Assembly (NCBI GenBank): GCA_030040865.1
Contig: JASHSX010000013.1
Location: 1 to 36,127 of the forward strand
Origin: Thermoplasmata archaeon
Lineage (GTDB): Archaea; Thermoplasmatota; Thermoplasmata; Lutacidiplasmatales; UBA184
DNA length: 36,127 bases
Reading direction: 5' to 3'
The translations under genes and the position numbers were made by a program. This document shows, piece after piece, positions 3,370-36,127 of this stretch. Numbering within the stretch: position 1 is the first letter of the stretch; every line of letters begins with the position of its first letter. The notes beneath the pieces are model-generated. The model ran no database searches. It was given only the letters and a program-made list of their open reading frames with translations, and had not been told where the DNA came from.

Positions 3370-5190
3370 TTACCCGAGCGTCACCCTCCGTTGTTCGGCC
3401 TGGGCCTTCGCCCGTCGTTCCCGGAACCACAACACGATCGCCGGCGCCGCCACGGCGACCGCCACGAGCCCCCCGACCTCACCGGCCTGGAGGCCCGGGA
3501 CGGCCGACCAGACGTTCGAGGGAAGGGCCGACGACGCGACGTCGAACACCAGCACGGTCGGTCCGGCGCTCGACACGACGATCGCGCCGGACGGGTCGTT
3601 GCCGTAGGCCGAGATCGTCACCGAGTAGGCCCCGTAGGCGAGCGGGAACGGAGCGCTTCCCCCGCCGGGCGAGACGACCGTCGCGAACCCGAGCGGGGTC
3701 CCGACGGCGGTCTCCGACCAGCTGCCGTTCTGGATGGTGAAGTGGAGCGACGGCAGGAGCTGACCGGTCGAGAGGTCGACCGCCTCGATGAACACGAGGC
3801 CGTAGCCGGGCAGGGGCGACGTCGCCGGGCCCCCCGACTCCGAGTACGAATAGTTCCCCGAGCTGACCGCCGTTCCGAAGATGTCCTTCGCGACCACGGA
3901 GAAGGTGATCGCCCCGCCCGACGGAAGGCCCGGCAGGACCGAGTAGGAGGTGTTGGCGTCGGCCGCCGTCATGGGGAGGAGGCCCGAGAGCGTCCCGACC
4001 GCGTCGTGGTAGACGAACGCGACCGCCGCCGAGGCGATCGTCACGTTCGGGAGCGGGGAGTGGACCGTCACGTTGACGGGATCGTTCGTGGGGAGCGTCG
4101 CCGTGCCCGTGAGCACGTTCGGGCTCGCCGACAGCACGAGGTTCGCATCGAGCCCGCGCGTCGGATACCACCAGCCGCCTTGGGACGTCCAGTTGATCGC
4201 GTAGTCGCTGCTCCAGATCGGGTCGACCTCCCCGCCCGACCACAGCGACCAGGCGACGATCCGGAAGTGGAGGGTATCTCCGGCGTACGGCCCGATGGGC
4301 GCCGTCAGATTGACCACCGTCCGGTTCGACGGCGTGAAGTACTGGTTGAACGGACCGCCGGGCGTGGACCCGGTCAGGTTGAAGAACACCTCGGCGGCTC
4401 CGATCGGCGGTGGAGTGCCGCCCCCGGCTCCGATCGAGGTCAGGGTGATGTCGAGCGCCTGGTGGGCGTTCGGATCGTAGAGCGTGCCCGAGCCGATCGC
4501 CGACGGCGTGGTGCTGACGTCGATATCGTCGCCGAAGGTCGGCGTCGGCCAGGTCGACGCGACCGTGAACATCCAGGTCCAGTTGTCGACGATCCCACCG
4601 TAGTTGTACGGATTCGAGTAGGCGTTCGCGGAGCGGAGGGAGTTCGGGATCCCGACGCTCGAGTTCACCGTGACGTTGAAGTACACTTCGCTGCCGGGCC
4701 AGAAGTAGCGGAACGTGTTCAGGAAGAACGAAGCCTCGTTCGGCTGCGAGGGGGAGACGTACATGGGGAACAGGGCCGGGGTGACCGGCGAGAATCCCGA
4801 GACGGGCACCGTCTGGTTCCCCGCCGTGGGCCAGCCGGTCGCCCACAGCGCGATGTTCGCGTCCAGGATCGGTACGGTCGTCGAGAAGTTGAGCCAGATC
4901 CCCGGCGAGTCGCTCGGCAGCGTGTTCGAGCACGGCGCGATCTGGAAGGCGGAGTCGGAGAGGGCGGGATCCCCGACGACCGTGATCTGGGGCTGAAGGC
5001 TGACGAAGAAGTTCGAGGAATCCCAGGTCCCTCCGTTGGTCGGCGTGGGACACGAGGGGGCGGCTCCCGGGCTCACGGTAGCGCGCGGCCCCGCGGTCGT
5101 CGCGGACGCGCCGCCGACCGCGAGCCCCCCGAGGACCGGGATCGCGACCAGGGTCGCCACGAGCACGACCCACGCGAAACGGCCCGTCAC
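3370..5190 (-). CDS. Exported surface protein with N-terminal signal/TM and C-terminal TM anchor ending AQAEQRRVTLG
   Basis: ORF 3370..5670 trimmed to the GTG at 5190, which overlaps the upstream gene stop (GTGA). Signal-like VTGRFAWVVLVATLVAIPVLGGLAVGG, many N-x-S/T sequons, C-terminal VGGLVAVAVAAPAIVLWFRERRAKAQAEQRRVTLG. Confidence 0.85.
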   Translation of the reverse strand: MTGRFAWVVLVATLVAIPVLGGLAVGGASATTAGPRATVSPGAAPSCPTPTNGGTWDSSNFFVSLQPQITVVGDPALSDSAFQIAPCSNTLPSDSPGIWLNFSTTVPILDANIALWATGWPTAGNQTVPVSGFSPVTPALFPMYVSPSQPNEASFFLNTFRYFWPGSEVYFNVTVNSSVGIPNSLRSANAYSNPYNYGGIVDNWTWMFTVASTWPTPTFGDDIDVSTTPSAIGSGTLYDPNAHQALDITLTSIGAGGGTPPPIGAAEVFFNLTGSTPGGPFNQYFTPSNRTVVNLTAPIGPYAGDTLHFRIVAWSLWSGGEVDPIWSSDYAINWTSQGGWWYPTRGLDANLVLSASPNVLTGTATLPTNDPVNVTVHSPLPNVTIASAAVAFVYHDAVGTLSGLLPMTAADANTSYSVLPGLPSGGAITFSVVAKDIFGTAVSSGNYSYSESGGPATSPLPGYGLVFIEAVDLSTGQLLPSLHFTIQNGSWSETAVGTPLGFATVVSPGGGSAPFPLAYGAYSVTISAYGNDPSGAIVVSSAGPTVLVFDVASSALPSNVWSAVPGLQAGEVGGLVAVAVAAPAIVLWFRERRAKAQAEQRRVTLG

Positions 5191-19643: not shown

Positions 19644-19779
19644 CTATGTCGCACTCCTTGATAAGACCGCACGGTCGGTTTCGGCGAGGTGCCCAAAGTC
19701 CGACCCGTGATTCGGAAATTTGTTCGGGCGGATGGGGGGACCGCCCACCGGGCCACTCCGAACGTTGTCGACACGCCGA

Positions 19780-20664
19780 ATGGGCTGGCCTCCGGCCCCG
19801 CGCGAGGCGGTGACGACCGTTCCGCGTCGGGGTTCGAGGGCGGCCCCGTCCGCCGGTGGCACCGTTGTGATCGTCGGAGGCGCCGGAGCGATGGGCCGGT
19901 GGCTCGCCCGATTTTTCGAGCGACGGGGCCACTCGGTGAAGATCCTGGACCCCCGTCGAGATTCCTCCGGTCGTGCCCGAGTCCCGACGATCGAGATCGG
20001 AGCACGATCCGCCGAGGTGGTGGTGTTTGCCACCCCGATCGCTGAGACGGCTCCGCTTCTCGCGAAACTCGTCGCTACGGGAACCGACGCGCTGGTCTTC
20101 GACGTCCTGAGCCTGAAGAGCCCCATCCTTCCCGCGGTCCGTCGTGCCGCTGCTGCGGGGCTCAAGATCACGAGCGTTCACCCGATGTTCGGTCCGACGG
20201 TCCGACGCCTTCGCGGTCGGAATCTGCTCGTTCTCTCCTGCGGCAACCCGAGCGCGGATCGGGCGGTGGGCCGACTCTTTCGGGGGTCTGGGCTCACGAT
20301 CTCCCGTTCGGCGATCGAGGGGCACGATCGGCTGATCGCCGAGACCCTCGGGCTCCCGCAGGTTCTGGACCTGCTGTTCCTCCTAGTGCTCGGATCCGGT
20401 CGAACCGCCCCGCCGCATCTCGCACGGGCGGCCGGCACGAGCTTTCGACGGCACGCCGCGTCCGCGCGAGCCCTCCTTCGACAGAGCGCAGCGTTGACGT
20501 TGCAACTTCAGGTGGGGAACCCGTACACCCACGCCTCGCTGCGCCGGATTCGGGCGAACGTCGACCGTCTGGCCCGCCTCCTCCGGGCGGAGGACCTAGA
20601 CGCCCTGGAGGTCGCGATCGATCGCGGATCTGACCGTTTGAGAGCGGTCCGCCCCCGCGATTAG
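19780..20664 (+). CDS. tyrA: Prephenate dehydrogenase (TyrA family)
   Basis: Rossmann motif TVVIVGGAGAMGRWLARFFERRGHSVKILD, VVVFATPI, SVHPMFGPTVRRLRG, followed by a helical domain. The exact start is uncertain (ORF extends to 19720). Confidence 0.8.
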   Translation: MGWPPAPREAVTTVPRRGSRAAPSAGGTVVIVGGAGAMGRWLARFFERRGHSVKILDPRRDSSGRARVPTIEIGARSAEVVVFATPIAETAPLLAKLVATGTDALVFDVLSLKSPILPAVRRAAAAGLKITSVHPMFGPTVRRLRGRNLLVLSCGNPSADRAVGRLFRGSGLTISRSAIEGHDRLIAETLGLPQVLDLLFLLVLGSGRTAPPHLARAAGTSFRRHAASARALLRQSAALTLQLQVGNPYTHASLRRIRANVDRLARLLRAEDLDALEVAIDRGSDRLRAVRPRD

Positions 20665-22182
20665 CGCAGGCCCTTCGCCGAGCGCCGAATACCCAGGAGA
20701 CCGCGCGCCGCCTCCGGTGGGCCGGTACGGAGAATCCCGGACGGGAAGCGGTCGAACCCTCGACGACGCCCGATTGACGGCAACGGCCACGAAGAGTCGC
20801 GTCGCGCGAAGCTTCTCCACGGTGGCGCTGAGGCGCTCGAGCGGGACGTCAAAGCGGAGCGACCGGCCGTCGCGGGTGGATCTTCCGAGCTCCCCGAGGA
20901 GGCCGTCCCACGCCGGCCGGGGTCCCCGGGGGCCCTCGCGAAGGATCGCGACAACTCGGGCTCGCCCGGCGGCGGGCACGGTGAGACGGGAACGTGCACG
21001 GCGGAGGACGGCAGGATCCGACGGACCGCTCCGTCGTATCCGCGTACCCCCACGGCGCCCGACCGGGATGTCGATACCGATCACGCGAACCCGGAGTCCG
21101 GGGGGAATAAGTCGAAGGGCTTCTCGGGAGACCAGCGGACACCCGCCCTCCGCCAGCCGTTCGAGGTCGTCGGCATCGATCTCTCGCACCACGGGACCCC
21201 CGGAACACAGATCGGGGTCGGCGAAGAGGAGGCCCGGGACGTCCTTGACCAACGCCACTTCCTCAGCCCGGAGCAGTCGACCGAGGGCCACGGCCGTGAC
21301 GTCACTTCCCCCGCGCGGGAGGAGCGCCGGACCCCCCTGCCGATCGACGCCCACGAATCCCGGCAGGACGATTACCGACGCGTCCCCGGGCGTAAGGAGA
21401 GCGCGAACTCGGGGCCGGCTGCGGGCGAGATCCACCTCAGCGTTCCAAGGGCCCCCCCGGAGCACGAGCGGCCAGCCGGCGTCCTCCGGGACGACCAGCC
21501 GGGAGACGATCCCCCGCGCTCGAAGATGGGTGTCGAGGACCCGGGCCCCGAGTTCCTCGCCCCGCGCCAGAGTACGGAGCGACGCGGAGCTGGCTCCCGA
21601 CGACGGGATCGACGGCAGAAGTCCGAGGATATCGTCGGTCAGAGTCCCCGGGGCGCTCGCGACCGCGATCACGTTCCCGCGTCGGGCACACCGGGCGATG
21701 AGATCGACCGCCCGGGCCACACGGGCGGGGTCGCCGGCGATGCTTCCCCCGAATTTCAGGATCCGCGTCGGACGTCTCCGGCGGGACGGGGGGGACCGCG
21801 CTCGACGGAGCTGTGCTCCGATCCGTGGGACGATGCGAGGCACCGGCGGCTCGGGGCTAGGTACCGAACGTTGGGCGCGTACGGACTCGTCGATAAGCCA
21901 ATCGGCAAGAACACTCGAACGCTCGCTCGTCACGCCGAGCGTCCCGAGAGCCTGTTGCCAGCGCTGGTGAACCTGGGCCTCGACCGGGCGGTTCCGGATC
22001 GGGAGTCCCACGCCCTTCTTGTAGCACCCGATCGACCGCGCGACCCGCAATCGTCGCTCGATGGCTCGCTGGAGGGCGCGATCGATCCTCGCGATCTGGA
22101 GTCGGAGCTCCGACAACTCGAAATCCGTCCCGTCCGACTCGACCGGGAAGCTGTCGCGGGAGGTCTGGTCCGCTCCGCTCAT
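20596..22182 (-). CDS. Chorismate mutase (AroQ)-aspartokinase fusion protein
   Basis: N-terminal LSELRLQIARIDRALQRAIERRLRVARSIGCYKKGVGLPIRNRPVEAQV (AroQ helix pattern), then aspartokinase RILKFGGSIAGDPARV, GFVGVDRQGGPALLPRGGSDVTAVALG, LVKDVPGLLFADPDL, and an ACT-like C-terminus. Start set at ATG 22182; the ORF extends to 22407. Confidence 0.82.
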   Translation of the reverse strand: MSGADQTSRDSFPVESDGTDFELSELRLQIARIDRALQRAIERRLRVARSIGCYKKGVGLPIRNRPVEAQVHQRWQQALGTLGVTSERSSVLADWLIDESVRAQRSVPSPEPPVPRIVPRIGAQLRRARSPPSRRRRPTRILKFGGSIAGDPARVARAVDLIARCARRGNVIAVASAPGTLTDDILGLLPSIPSSGASSASLRTLARGEELGARVLDTHLRARGIVSRLVVPEDAGWPLVLRGGPWNAEVDLARSRPRVRALLTPGDASVIVLPGFVGVDRQGGPALLPRGGSDVTAVALGRLLRAEEVALVKDVPGLLFADPDLCSGGPVVREIDADDLERLAEGGCPLVSREALRLIPPGLRVRVIGIDIPVGRRGGTRIRRSGPSDPAVLRRARSRLTVPAAGRARVVAILREGPRGPRPAWDGLLGELGRSTRDGRSLRFDVPLERLSATVEKLRATRLFVAVAVNRASSRVRPLPVRDSPYRPTGGGARSPGYSALGEGPALIAGADRSQTVRSAIDRDLQGV

Positions 22183-22553: not shown

Positions 22554-23633
22554 TCATCTCGGCCCGTCCGGCCGGGCTCCCCCTCCGACGTCGCTTACGA
22601 ACGTCCGTGGATTCGAACCCACTTCCCCGAGCGAAGCGACGAGTGACGCGGCGACGTCCCGGGCCCGTTCCGCGCTGGAGAAGGCGAACACGGCTGGTCC
22701 GCTCCCGGACAAGCCGGCGCCCCACGCTCCCGCGCGCCGGGCCGCGCGGCAGGCCCGGGCGAAACCGGGCACCAGAGACGCCCGGTACGGTTCGGCGATC
22801 CGATCGGCGAGGCTCCGGCCCACCTGATCGAGATCACCGGTGAGCAGCCCGTGTACGAGGCTGCACGCTCGTCCGATGTTCTCGCTCGCATCCGCGAGGG
22901 GGACGGTCGCCGGGAGCACGGAGCGCGAGAGGCGGGTGCTGAGCGGTGTTTCGGGCACGGCGAGCACGACCTTGAGCCGCGCGGGGGGCACGATGCGCAG
23001 GACGACGAGCGGATCGACGGACTCCAGGAACGTGAATGCCCCGGCAAGACTCGCCACTACGTTGTCGTAGTGGGCGCTCCCCGCCGCTGCAAATTCTCCC
23101 CCCACGGCTGCGCATCTCAGGATCTCGCGAAGTACCGGGTCCGAGGTGAGCGGAAGCCCCAGGGCGATCGCCCCGACCAGGGCACCGCCCAGAGCCGAGG
23201 CACCGCTCGATCCGATCCCGCTCCCGCCGGGCCCTCCCTTCCGTATCCGCACGACGCCGGACGCGACGCGCCCGGCCCTGGCGAAGATCGCGGTGAGAGC
23301 GGCCGAGGCGGCATTCGCCCCCGGCGTCGTGGGGAGCGACGCGTCGCCTTCGACCTCGACCGAGAGCCCACCGTCCGTTCGGGGCTCGAACTCGATCCGG
23401 TCCTCGATCGCCGCGAGCGAAAGCCCGAATCGGTCGAAGCCGGGCCCGACATTGGCGATGCTGTACGGCACCCGAACTCGTATGGTCCCGGTATGGTCGC
23501 GAGACCGCCACAGTTCGGAGAGATCCGGAACGGCCCCTCCGAATACCGGGGGGACCGTTTCTCGCCCGAGCGGGAGCTCACGAACCGACGCGACGAGATC
23601 CCCGATCCGAGTCGCTGCCGCGTCCGAGCTCAT
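22554..23633 (-). CDS. thrB: Homoserine kinase (GHMP family)
   Basis: RVRVPYSIANVGPGFDRFGLSL, GGPGGSGIGSSGASALGGALVGA, GLSGSGPAVFAF. ATG at 23633 overlaps the upstream stop (ATGA). About 50 aa N-terminal extension. Confidence 0.88.
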   Translation of the reverse strand: MSSDAAATRIGDLVASVRELPLGRETVPPVFGGAVPDLSELWRSRDHTGTIRVRVPYSIANVGPGFDRFGLSLAAIEDRIEFEPRTDGGLSVEVEGDASLPTTPGANAASAALTAIFARAGRVASGVVRIRKGGPGGSGIGSSGASALGGALVGAIALGLPLTSDPVLREILRCAAVGGEFAAAGSAHYDNVVASLAGAFTFLESVDPLVVLRIVPPARLKVVLAVPETPLSTRLSRSVLPATVPLADASENIGRACSLVHGLLTGDLDQVGRSLADRIAEPYRASLVPGFARACRAARRAGAWGAGLSGSGPAVFAFSSAERARDVAASLVASLGEVGSNPRTFVSDVGGGARPDGPR

Positions 23634-24835
23634 CGACGGAGACCCCGGGCCGTGTGCCCACCGATCCGTAGCGTAGCGATCCGCGACGGGGGTGCCACCG
23701 GGCCCGATCTTGGGATCGGTGTCTTCGCGGCGACGTCGGAGGGAGGGAGGTCCGCGGGACGGCGCCTCCACGACGCGCGCGCGCCACGCTCGAGCGACTC
23801 CAGTTCGGCCAGCAGTGCGGTCGCGACCTCGTCCGGACCGGCGCCCGGTCCTCGGAGCCAGAATGTTCCCGAGTACCGGGTCTCGACGCGGGCGAGACAC
23901 GTCGAACCCGGTACGTCCCACTCCCCTCCCTCGCGGATCCTGCGCAGACGGACTTCCGCCGCGCCCGGGAGGATCGTGGTGACGCTCGCGTAGCGTACGC
24001 GCCCCCGTTGCTCGGGCGGGACGCGTCGCGCGGTGTCCGCCGTGACCCGGTCGCACGGGATCGCCTCGGGAGCGAGCTCCGACCCGAAGAGCGCCTGATG
24101 GACGATGGCGGCCTTCAGGCTCGCATCGCGGCCGTCCAGGTCCCAGCTCGGATCGGCCTCGGCGATACCCAGACGCTGCGCCTTCCCGATGGCGTCCTCA
24201 AATCCGACGCCCCGCGCGAGCTCCTGCAGGACGAAGTTGGTCGTGCCGTTCAGGATCGCATCGACCCGAACCGGCGCCGCGGCCGCGAGCAGCGTCGGCG
24301 CGAGGGAGAGCAGCGGCACCGCTCCTCCGACCGTGGTGCCAAAGCGCACCGAGCGTTGGCGGCGTTGGGCCTCGTCGAGGATCGGAGCGTAGAACCGGGC
24401 GATGGGACTCTTGTTCGCCGTGACCACGTCGGCGCCCACGGCGAGCGCCCGGAGGATGTGCTCGGTCCCCGGCTCCCCCGAGACGACTGCTCCGCGGGTG
24501 AGCTCCAGGACCACATCGGGACGTACGCGCTCGAGCACCTCGCCGACCGTGCCGCGCACCGGGCCGCGATTCCCCAGTCGTCCCTCGCGGTCCTTCTCGC
24601 CGAGGGCCGCGACGAGGTCGATGCCGTTCGGGTCGGTCCACGCTCCGCTGGTATCGAGCGCGGCCACCACGCGCCAGCGTCGAGAGCCGCTCCAGCCGTT
24701 CTGTTGTTCGAGTCGTCGGGCGAGAGCGCGCCCCACCCGCCCGAATCCCACAATCGCCAGATCTCGGGCGCGGAGAGGCTCGCGGTCGCTCTCGGAGGGT
24801 GTGGGTGCGATCGCGGGAACGGGGGTGGCGCTCAT
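23630..24835 (-). CDS. hom: Homoserine dehydrogenase
   Basis: DLAIVGFGRVGRALARRLE, ADVVTANKSPIA, FGTTVGGAVPLL, ILNGTTNFVLQEL, AQRLGIAEADPSWDLDGRDASLKAAIV. Confidence 0.92.
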   Translation of the reverse strand: MSATPVPAIAPTPSESDREPLRARDLAIVGFGRVGRALARRLEQQNGWSGSRRWRVVAALDTSGAWTDPNGIDLVAALGEKDREGRLGNRGPVRGTVGEVLERVRPDVVLELTRGAVVSGEPGTEHILRALAVGADVVTANKSPIARFYAPILDEAQRRQRSVRFGTTVGGAVPLLSLAPTLLAAAAPVRVDAILNGTTNFVLQELARGVGFEDAIGKAQRLGIAEADPSWDLDGRDASLKAAIVHQALFGSELAPEAIPCDRVTADTARRVPPEQRGRVRYASVTTILPGAAEVRLRRIREGGEWDVPGSTCLARVETRYSGTFWLRGPGAGPDEVATALLAELESLERGARASWRRRPADLPPSDVAAKTPIPRSGPVAPPSRIATLRIGGHTARGLRR

Positions 24836-25122
24836 CAGAACCCGGCTCCCCCGGCGACCGCGGGGATGAGGTCGATCCGCGAGTCTCGAGTCACCGGAGT
24901 CGCGGCCCCGCCGGCATACCGGATATCGACGCCATCGACGTAGACGGCAAGGACACCGCGGAGTTGATCGCCGTCGAACAGAAGCTGGCGGAACCGGGGC
25001 CCCCCCACGACGGAGATCTGGGTGAGGAACTCCCCCACGGTCCCTTCGAATTCCGCGAACCTCCGGAGGTCCACGCCGAGTGCCGCCTGACGAAGGACCG
25101 ACCCGAGCGTGACCGTCACCAT
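24835..25122 (-). CDS. MoaD/ThiS-family beta-grasp sulfur-carrier-like protein with GG-AGF C-terminus
   Basis: 95 aa MVTVTLGSVLRQAALGVDLRRFAEFEGTVGEFLTQI...GVLAVYVDGVDIRYAGGAATPVTRDSRIDLIPAVAGGAGF*. MoaD-like spacing and 'P-x-V-A-G-G' terminus plus 3 residues. Overlaps thrC by 7 nt and the hom start by 1 nt. Confidence 0.85.
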   Translation of the reverse strand: MVTVTLGSVLRQAALGVDLRRFAEFEGTVGEFLTQISVVGGPRFRQLLFDGDQLRGVLAVYVDGVDIRYAGGAATPVTRDSRIDLIPAVAGGAGF

Positions 25123-26492
25123 GCCCGAGCCTCCCCCGGAGCGTCGTCCCGGCCGTTGAGCCATCGCGCAATCTCGTCCGCGTCGAAGCGCCGCGGATCC
25201 AACACGAGGGAGGGCAGCGACGACTCGGCCTCGATGCCGACGTCCGGGACCTTCCAGCCGGCCCCCGTCAAGAAAAGGACCACCCGATCCGACCGGGATA
25301 GGACCCCGGAGGCACGCAGCCGCCGGGCGGTCGCGATCACGGTCCCTCCCGCCGGTTCCACCCAGAGTCCCTCCCGGTGGCATGCGGCCCGAATCGCGTC
25401 CGTGACCTCGCCCGCACTCGGGGCGTCCGCCACCCCGCCGCTCCGTCGGATCGCGCGCAAGGCAGCCGGGCCCGACGCCGGGTCTCCGATCGCCAGGCTC
25501 TCCGCGATCGTGGTCGGGGTCTGCACGGGTTCAGTTCGGTCCGCACCGCGGTGGAAGGCGTCGACGATCGGGGTACAGCCCTCTGGCTGGGAGCCGATCA
25601 GCCGGAGCCCGCCGCCGGGCGACCGGTCCAACCATCCGAGGGAGGTGACCTGACGTTCGGCGCGCGCCGTGGCTGCGAGGAGAGCACCGGACCCGAGCGG
25701 GACGATCACCGCCTCCGGCGGAGTCCACGAGAGTTGCTCGAGCACCTCCAGCAGGACGGTCTTCGAGCCCTCGGCGTAGTAGGGGCGGAGGGTCACGTTG
25801 ACGAATCCGATCGGCAGCCGCTCGCCGACGAGGCTCGCGATCCGATTCGCGTCGTCGTAGGTCCCACGGACCTCCACGATCCGTGCCCCATACCGACGGG
25901 CCGGTGCGAGCTTCGCGGCCGGAAGACCGCGCGGTACGACGGTGAGGCACGGGGACCCGACGCGGGCGGCGGACCGTGCGGTCGCCGCCGCGAGGTTGCC
26001 GGTGGACGCACAACCGAACGCGGTGAAGCCCCGGCCGAGGCCAGTCGCCACGGCGACCGACGCCGGCCGATCCTTGAACGAACCGGACGGCAGCACCGAG
26101 TCGTCCTTGATCCAGAGGTCGTCGAGCCCCAGCAGCTCGCCGAGGCGACGGGCGCGGCGAAGCGGGCTTGACTCCACGGCAAGCCCCTCCTCGACGGCCC
26201 GGTCGATGGGCGGAAGCAGTTCCCGGAACCGCCAGAGGGTACGCGGCCGCCGACCGAGCAGCGCCACAGGATCGCTGCCGACGAGCGGTCCGAGGTCGTA
26301 GGCGACGTCGAGCGCCCCCAAACACTGGCCGCAGGCGGCCGCCACCTCGAGAGGCCCCGCAGCCCCGCACACCTCGCACGTCAGTCCCGAAGCGAGGCTC
26401 GTCGGGACCTCGGCCGTCGAAGAGGATCCGGGGTAGGTGAGGGGGGTCGGCGGTTCGGTGAGGCTCTCCGGCGGTCGGACGGGGGCGGTCAT
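25116..26492 (-). CDS. thrC: Threonine synthase with N-terminal zinc ribbon
   Basis: TCEVCGAAGPLEVAAACGQC; LWIKDDSVLPSGSFKDRPASVAVA (PLP lysine motif); FGCASTGNLAAATA; LGSGALLAA; VVLFLTGAGWKVP. GAGGAGG about 12 nt upstream. Confidence 0.88.
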   Translation of the reverse strand: MTAPVRPPESLTEPPTPLTYPGSSSTAEVPTSLASGLTCEVCGAAGPLEVAAACGQCLGALDVAYDLGPLVGSDPVALLGRRPRTLWRFRELLPPIDRAVEEGLAVESSPLRRARRLGELLGLDDLWIKDDSVLPSGSFKDRPASVAVATGLGRGFTAFGCASTGNLAAATARSAARVGSPCLTVVPRGLPAAKLAPARRYGARIVEVRGTYDDANRIASLVGERLPIGFVNVTLRPYYAEGSKTVLLEVLEQLSWTPPEAVIVPLGSGALLAATARAERQVTSLGWLDRSPGGGLRLIGSQPEGCTPIVDAFHRGADRTEPVQTPTTIAESLAIGDPASGPAALRAIRRSGGVADAPSAGEVTDAIRAACHREGLWVEPAGGTVIATARRLRASGVLSRSDRVVLFLTGAGWKVPDVGIEAESSLPSLVLDPRRFDADEIARWLNGRDDAPGEARAW

Positions 26493-26542
26493 GGGGCACC
26501 TGAACCTCCTCGAGGAGACCGCGGCCATAATCGTGAGTGCAC

Positions 26543-26557
26543 CAAAAATTCCTATAG
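26543..26557. promoter_or_regulatory. AT-rich element in the divergent thrC / HTH-CBS intergenic region; candidate shared TATA
   Basis: ccaaaaattcctata is a short AT-rich block in this GC-rich intergenic region, about 22-36 bp upstream of the plus-strand ATG at 26579 and about 50-65 bp upstream of the minus-strand thrC start. Confidence 0.5.
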
Positions 26558-26578
26558 GACTGGCTCGTCGGGTCGCGC

Positions 26579-27163
26579 ATGCCTTCCGATCCGCGAGTGT
26601 CCAGCTTTCCGGACCTCTCCGAGGTGCGGCGGCGACGGGTCCACGTGGGGCTCAGCCAGGGCGCTCTCGCCCAGGCGGCCGGCGTGAGCCAGTCGCTCGT
26701 CGCGAAGGTCGAGCGCGGCCGGGTCGAGCCGTCGTACCGGATCGTGCAGGCGCTCTTCCAGGCGCTGGAACGCCACGAGCGGCACGCGAAACCCGAGGTC
26801 TCGGTCCGGCACCTCATGTCGAGCAATCTCGTCACCGTCGCGCCGACCGCGCTCGTCGGGGAGGCCGCCCACCTCCTCCGGCGTCACTCGATCAGCCAGG
26901 TCCCGGTGCTCGAGCACGGGTTCAGCGTCGGCTCCCTCACCGACCGGGTGGTCGTGAGCTGCCTCGCCGACCCGTCCCTCGTGGACCGCCTTGCGAGCGT
27001 GCGGGTCCGTCAGGTGATGCAGGAGCCGTTCCCTCAGATCGACGAGTCGACGTCACGGTCGGTCGCCGTCGCCCTGCTGGGCCACGTACCGGCGGTGTTG
27101 GTGACGCGGGGCGGCCGGCTCGCCGGTATCCTCACCCAATCGGACCTGTTCAAGGAACTGTAG
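26579..27163 (+). CDS. XRE-type HTH transcriptional regulator with paired CBS domains
   Basis: VRRRRVHVGLSQGALAQAAGVSQSLVAKVERGRVEPSYRIVQALFQAL (HTH) followed by VRHLMSSNLVTVAPTALVGEAAHLLRRHSISQVPVLEHGFSVGSLTD and VRQVMQEPFPQIDESTSRSVAVALLGHVPAVLVTRGGRLAGILTQSDLFKEL (CBS pair). Confidence 0.92.
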   Translation: MPSDPRVSSFPDLSEVRRRRVHVGLSQGALAQAAGVSQSLVAKVERGRVEPSYRIVQALFQALERHERHAKPEVSVRHLMSSNLVTVAPTALVGEAAHLLRRHSISQVPVLEHGFSVGSLTDRVVVSCLADPSLVDRLASVRVRQVMQEPFPQIDESTSRSVAVALLGHVPAVLVTRGGRLAGILTQSDLFKEL

Positions 27164-35934: not shown

Positions 35935-36127
35935 CCAGGTCGTGGTAGTAAGCCCCGTTCTGTTTCAGGCAGCATTCGACTGCGCGCTCTCCTCGACGGT
36001 CGGGGAGACTCCTCCTCCCGTCGGTCAGGGCTTGCTCCCGGGGAGTCGGCCGTTTCACCAGATCCCGGTGGAGCCTCCGGGGCGGCCCCATCACCGTCCC
36101 ACCGGGCTGTGTCGTTTCTGCTCCGTG
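35935..36127 (-). ncRNA. rnpB: Archaeal RNase P RNA, 3' portion (5' part lies beyond the window end)
   Basis: The minus strand reads ...GCAGAAACGACACAGCCC...TGGTGAAACGGCC...GGGAGCAAGCCC...AATGCTGCCTGAAACAGAACGGGGCTTACTACC. These match conserved RNase P RNA blocks (AGAAACGACAC, GGAGCAAGCCC, AATGCTGCC, ACAGAA...GGCTTACT). Boundaries approximate. Confidence 0.88.

Follow-up and report, generated by a model that had tools for sequence, protein, structure and literature searches.

The window analysed here is the whole of a 36,127-nucleotide stretch of DNA from a Thermoplasmata archaeon, whose genome is available as 205 contigs (1.75 Mb, 79.65% complete). Genes for a threonine synthase (ThrC)-like enzyme, a small sulfur carrier, a homoserine dehydrogenase (hom) and a homoserine kinase (thrB) form a single overlapping operon (Table 1). 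The ThrC-like gene, which we refer to as metM-like and for which a longer alternative start at 26528 is possible, overlaps the carrier gene by 7 nt (ATGGTGA, with the thrC stop at 25116-25118 inside the carrier start). One base belongs to both the stop of the carrier gene and the start of hom (TGATG at 24833-24837), and the last 4 nt of hom lie within thrB. Judging from its domain matches, the chorismate mutase-aspartate kinase fusion is probably the entry enzyme for the pathway to which hom and thrB belong. The amino-acid kinase found close to the operon with metM in a relative (L032) is much shorter than this fusion, and a chorismate mutase was not noted there. A prephenate-dehydrogenase-like open reading frame, recognized by eye only, faces the fusion gene (19720-20664, + strand), and an archaeal RNase P RNA (35937-36127, - strand, 108.6 bits) is cut by the contig end.

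Table 1. Features of the metM-like locus and its surroundings in the window.
Feature	Position	Strand	Evidence
Chorismate mutase fused to aspartate kinase	20596..22182	-	CM_2 and AA_kinase matches
Homoserine kinase (thrB), predicted O-phosphohomoserine maker	22554..23633	-	NCBIfam homoserine kinase, 246.8 bits vs 194-bit cut-off
Homoserine dehydrogenase (hom)	23630..24835	-	Homoserine_dh, E 1.2e-28
MetO/CysO-like sulfur carrier	24835..25122	-	95 aa, C-terminus PAVAGG-AGF; ThiS Pfam match, CysO-like beta-grasp model, conserved ThrC-like neighbour
MetM-like threonine-synthase-related PLP enzyme, carrier partner	25116..26492	-	PALP E 2.9e-63; carrier-linked clade; RPxYxEGSKT; GSFKDR
Palindrome ATTCCTATAGGAC(T), candidate operator between regulator and metM	26548..26561	.	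Sole site in window, 0.17 expected by chance; same place in relatives
Divergent HTH + two-CBS-domain protein, candidate operon regulator	26579..27163	+	HTH_3 and CBS matches; 38-62% identical orthologues next to metM in relatives

The preliminary description of this DNA had read the carrier as a 95-residue beta-grasp protein ending in PAVAGG-AGF, with the overlaps of 7 nt and 1 nt given above. This is confirmed by the open reading frame (ATG start, TGA stop directly after PAVAGG-AGF), by a Pfam ThiS match (28.5 bits against a cut-off of 22.5, E 2.3e-6), which was recovered independently in a genome-wide ThiS/MoaD search, and by a confident beta-grasp AlphaFold2 model (pLDDT 88.8, low confidence at the tail only). 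The solved structures closest to this model are CysO of Mycobacterium tuberculosis (3dwg_C), the MoaD-related protein 1v8c of Thermus thermophilus and CysO of Amycolatopsis (4n6e_B).

The residues past the Gly-Gly had been proposed as the key feature of the protein. We rejected the extension as a defining feature because the counterparts in six Thermoplasmata relatives (37-57% identity) end exactly in PAVAGG; the AGF tail is peculiar to the window genome and known from one assembled genome. Other extensions past GG were found at L050 (GGC), L054 (GGT), L057 (GGGSSTIRR) and in a fusion protein at L049. The window carrier would require trimming for a free Gly-Gly. A JAMM peptidase gene is present in the genome, and its product may remove AGF. 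In a second type of carrier, which is encoded on contig C154 of the window genome and in eight relatives, GG directly continues into sequence leading to an E1 enzyme, a continuity that would make cleavage after GG presumably routine in these cells. The residues that follow the internal GG in these fused carriers vary (TGAP, APAP, ASGP, AGEP, KPGA). A further carrier, ending HS[VI]AGG, is paired with a BNR/WD40-like repeat protein (L038 4725-6144; L029 2963-4415), and the L029 pair adjoins the metM operon.

The partner of the carrier is a ThrC-like PLP enzyme of fold type II, as indicated by the PALP match, the PLP lysine motif GSFKDR and a predicted model that matches solved ThrC. Its score against the TIGR00260 thrC profile is 182.4 (cut-off 167.1). 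In a phylogenetic tree, carrier-linked ThrC-like enzymes form one clade with a support of 92/99, apart from solved threonine synthases and from a second ThrC-like protein of the same genome; two unlabelled rows within the clade are second fetches of loci already there. The substrate-site motif RPxYxE[G/A]SKT is present in all 20 of the 20 clade members, while NPxRxEGQKT stands at this site in three solved threonine synthases and in two canonical paralogues from archaea. In the Thermus threonine synthase, the arginine that binds the phosphate of the substrate presumably belongs to this loop. The partner enzyme is probably not an ordinary threonine synthase. Two Bathyarchaeota genomes (G109, G110) carry both the carrier-linked enzyme and a canonical ThrC. 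The second ThrC-like gene of the window genome (contig C124; L037 3792-5000) reaches 434.6 bits to NF006050, and its role as the threonine synthase is unsure because a close orthologue (L091) occurs in G031, a relative in which hom was not detected.

Conservation of the gene order in relatives, which the preliminary description had suggested checking, could be established. Among 106 genomes of the order, hom matches were found in only 8, and the order thrC-carrier-hom-thrB is kept in 7 of them, the window genome and six relatives; given its recurrence in six relatives, it is not a product of chance. The eighth genome (G089) has a different operon, in which hom and an amino-acid kinase gene are joined by genes for a CysM/CBS-like PLP enzyme and an enzyme of Cys/Met metabolism. 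Scanning a genome collection with a ThrC-like alignment yielded 21 loci, and every archaeal locus with a readable downstream gene (18/18) has the carrier there, immediately after the ThrC-like gene. These comprise six Thermoplasmata loci and twelve others, including Brockarchaeota, Bathyarchaeota, Heimdallarchaeota, Freyarchaeota and Thermoproteota; at L058 the sequence stops within the ThrC-like gene. Two bacterial loci (L060, L061) have no carrier and are positioned outside the carrier-linked clade, and none of 16 other ThrC-like genes used as a control had a carrier nearby.

The clade also includes a gene of Nonomuraea, found at 40% identity by tblastn, which has a carrier ending in PAVAGG downstream and a SAM riboswitch upstream (RF00162, 68.7 bits). 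No SAM riboswitch was found at the gathering threshold in the archaeal loci searched. The other plasmid matches fetched were ordinary threonine-synthase-like genes with no carriers.

The closest precedents named beforehand were HcyS of Wolinella succinogenes and QbsE of the quinolobactin pathway. Both have something in common with the window carrier: HcyS/HcyD is a thiocarboxylate system for homocysteine whose carrier has residues past GG, and QbsE/QbsD has a carrier with two or three such residues and a need for JAMM. The Wolinella partner enzyme is of the MetY type (fold type I) and uses O-acetylhomoserine. The window partner, in contrast, belongs to the PALP type (PF00291) and not to PF01053, no MetX was found above the cut-off, and the window operon has no JAMM gene, the only one found being on contig C154. 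QbsE/QbsD serves another pathway and has no neighbours in common with the window. The view of HcyS and QbsE as nearest precedent thus gave way to MetM/MetO of Streptomyces, where the partner is likewise a ThrC-like enzyme of fold type II, and the window unit resembles MetM/MetO more closely than either. Streptomyces MetM is reported to be a homocysteine synthase with a SAM riboswitch upstream (PMC12172450); together with the carrier MetO it was described in 2024 from Streptomyces albulus (Hasebe et al.). By this description, the two systems are alike in a ThrC-like enzyme with an adjacent carrier gene and in O-phosphohomoserine as the likely acceptor. The window enzyme falls in one clade with the riboswitch-linked actinobacterial gene of Nonomuraea; its kinship to S. 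albulus MetM itself is indirect, being drawn from the description of that enzyme. Unlike MetM/MetO, the window unit is archaeal, shares its operon with hom and thrB, has an HTH-CBS regulator and a palindrome in place of a SAM riboswitch, and has a carrier with a three-residue tail. A limited literature search found no archaeal version of MetM/MetO. CysO/CysM/Mec+ with MoeZR of M. tuberculosis is similar in the carrier fold, a PLP partner of fold type II, a JAMM in the genome and one E1 that possibly serves several carriers (PMC3227635), but the window partner is ThrC-like and accompanied by hom and thrB rather than of the CysM type, and a CysM-JAMM cluster lies separately on C154.

The HTH-CBS gene and metM diverge from each other in the window, in the relatives with readable flanks and at L054. 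Between these two genes lies a palindrome, ATTCCTATAGGAAT with minor variation, in the window, L029 (5285-5304), L030, L032 (5421-5440) and L034 (5329-5348), and in a weaker form in L033; at L035 it occurs at 4647 and 8774, beside HTH-CBS regulators. Across the sequence fetched, about 714 kb, matches with up to three mismatches were almost confined to these places. In G089, the palindrome precedes both the HTH-CBS gene and the operon of cystathionine-synthase/lyase-type sulfur amino-acid enzymes with hom, which connects the regulator with sulfur amino acids. By their arrangement, the HTH-CBS protein and the ATTCCTATAGGAAT palindrome look like the control of the operon. The protein may repress or activate the operon through this site, depending on an adenosyl ligand such as SAM.

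The preliminary description had called for a search of the genome for a JAMM peptidase, a ThiF/MoeB-like E1 and a second MoaD with moaE, and all of these are present. The window genome has four ThiS/MoaD matches, three beyond the operon carrier; one, on contig C143, is followed by MoaE. Contig C154 encodes a CysM-like enzyme together with the sole JAMM and the sole ThiF detected in this genome; a carrier domain is fused there to a MoeB/ThiF-rhodanese protein (E1-rhodanese). This cluster is conserved in the family (L036 5022-7874; L101, L102, L104-L108 and L114). Similar MoaD-MoeBR fusions have been reported (PMC11237513), and mycobacterial MoeZR is a precedent for one E1 serving two carriers (PMC3227635). 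JAMM was detected in 17 of 19 genomes tested and not in G089 and G106, the latter of which nevertheless has the carrier-enzyme pair.

Genes of sulfur supply also adjoin the pair. An E1 is found beside it in Brockarchaeota, several Bathyarchaeota-type loci, L052 and Freyarchaeota, and in G021 an E1-rhodanese gene adjoins the operon across the regulator gene. Sulfite reductase is a neighbour at L046, with similar genes at L045, L048, L051 and L055; TusA and DsrE at L045 and L059; and hom at L048, L050, L051 and L055. Genes resembling cysteine desulfurase and NifU lie upstream at L048, with similar genes at L055. In a Bathyarchaeal locus (L049 1991-3610), the gene that immediately follows the MetM-like one encodes a single protein in which a carrier domain of the ThiS type (6-92) is combined with a CysM-like PLP domain (245-515).

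Other routes to homocysteine were searched for as well. The DUF39/HcyBio pathway is likewise an archaeal route to this product, but HcyBio is absent from the window genome and was not found in the metM-bearing Thermoplasmata relatives; for MetX, both gave chance-level matches only, none above the cut-off. PLP enzymes of Cys/Met metabolism are present in the window genome (two) and in these relatives. One of the two lies on contig C157 beside a cystathionine-beta-synthase-like gene, a pair in keeping with the reverse route, in which homocysteine is turned into cysteine. Among the genomes from outside the Thermoplasmata, G106 and G111 lack both HcyBio and a strong PF01053 match. G107, G109, G110 and G112 have HcyBio in addition to the carrier-enzyme pair, which is therefore not their only possible route. 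At least one further homocysteine pathway has been considered still to be discovered, the archaeon Pyrolobus being among the organisms named (PMC5764234).

From these gene contexts and protein families, we consider it likely that the window locus is an archaeal MetM/MetO-type unit, in which the carrier thiocarboxylate would give its sulfur to MetM for the formation of homocysteine from O-phosphohomoserine. The original proposal, in which a thiocarboxylate provides the sulfur for homocysteine formed from phosphohomoserine, is well supported. None of the findings named beforehand as refuting it was made: the genome has further carriers, one of them next to MoaE, as well as a JAMM, and the linkage to thrC and hom is conserved. 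Hom and ThrB would make O-phosphohomoserine, JAMM would expose the Gly-Gly of the carrier, and the E1-rhodanese would adenylate the carrier and then turn its C-terminus into a thiocarboxylate. The MetM-like enzyme could use this sulfur to displace phosphate from the PLP-bound substrate, releasing either homocysteine or a carrier-homocysteine adduct that JAMM would hydrolyse, as Mec+ acts on CysO-cysteine.

A possible though less probable alternative is that the ThrC-like enzyme is the threonine synthase of the organism, or turns one substrate into both threonine and homocysteine, with the carrier merely switching or supplementing its activity. The presence of a metO-like carrier beside the MetM homologue of Microcystis favours the MetM/MetO-type reading. 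The same paper reports, however, that a Microcystis MetM homologue was mainly a threonine synthase in vitro (PMC12172450), so a dual role is the strongest rival. The placement with hom and thrB, the score above the thrC cut-off and the unsure role of the C124 protein, given its orthologue in a genome lacking a detected hom, agree with such a role, but the enzyme lies outside the clade of solved ThrC, its substrate loop is changed, and two genomes have a canonical ThrC in addition. An invariable carrier would also need a reason. It is improbable that the pair makes cysteine from O-phosphoserine in the manner of CysO/CysM: CysO is the closest carrier structure and the neighbouring carrier at L049 is fused to a CysM-like domain, but the separate CysM-JAMM-[carrier-E1] cluster on C154 and a ThrC-like rather than CysM-like enzyme, accompanied by hom and thrB, speak against it. 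We regard as very improbable a role of the carrier as a ubiquitin-like modifier of the archaeal SAMP type, conjugated to the enzymes of the operon. The preliminary description had offered a modifier as its alternative, for which no positive support emerged: archaeal SAMPs have E1 and JAMM in common with sulfur transfer, but the weak SAMP1 match (33.3 bits) is below the NCBIfam cut-off of 60, another carrier (C103) scores higher, and sulfur delivery is suggested by the carrier's strict pairing with one enzyme clade and by its linkage to TusA, DsrE and sulfite reductase. A MoaD of molybdopterin synthase, located in the operon by accident, agrees with the MoaD/ThiS fold but was rejected as next to impossible, as the MoaD of this genome adjoins MoaE on C143 and the gene order is conserved across several phyla.

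For the MetM/MetO-type reading, a wider proposal is finely balanced between right and wrong: that archaea of several phyla have in common an as yet undescribed thiocarboxylate route under regulation, in which reduced sulfur moves from sulfite reductase via TusA/DsrE and an E1 to a dedicated carrier and on to MetM, with control in Thermoplasmata by HTH-CBS proteins on the ATTCCTATAGGAAT operator, with the carrier of the window lineage as a precursor trimmed by a shared JAMM. If true, a carrier-dependent archaeal route would help to explain methionine formation in lineages without acyl-homoserine or DUF39 enzymes, and many archaeal genes annotated as threonine synthase would probably be misnamed.
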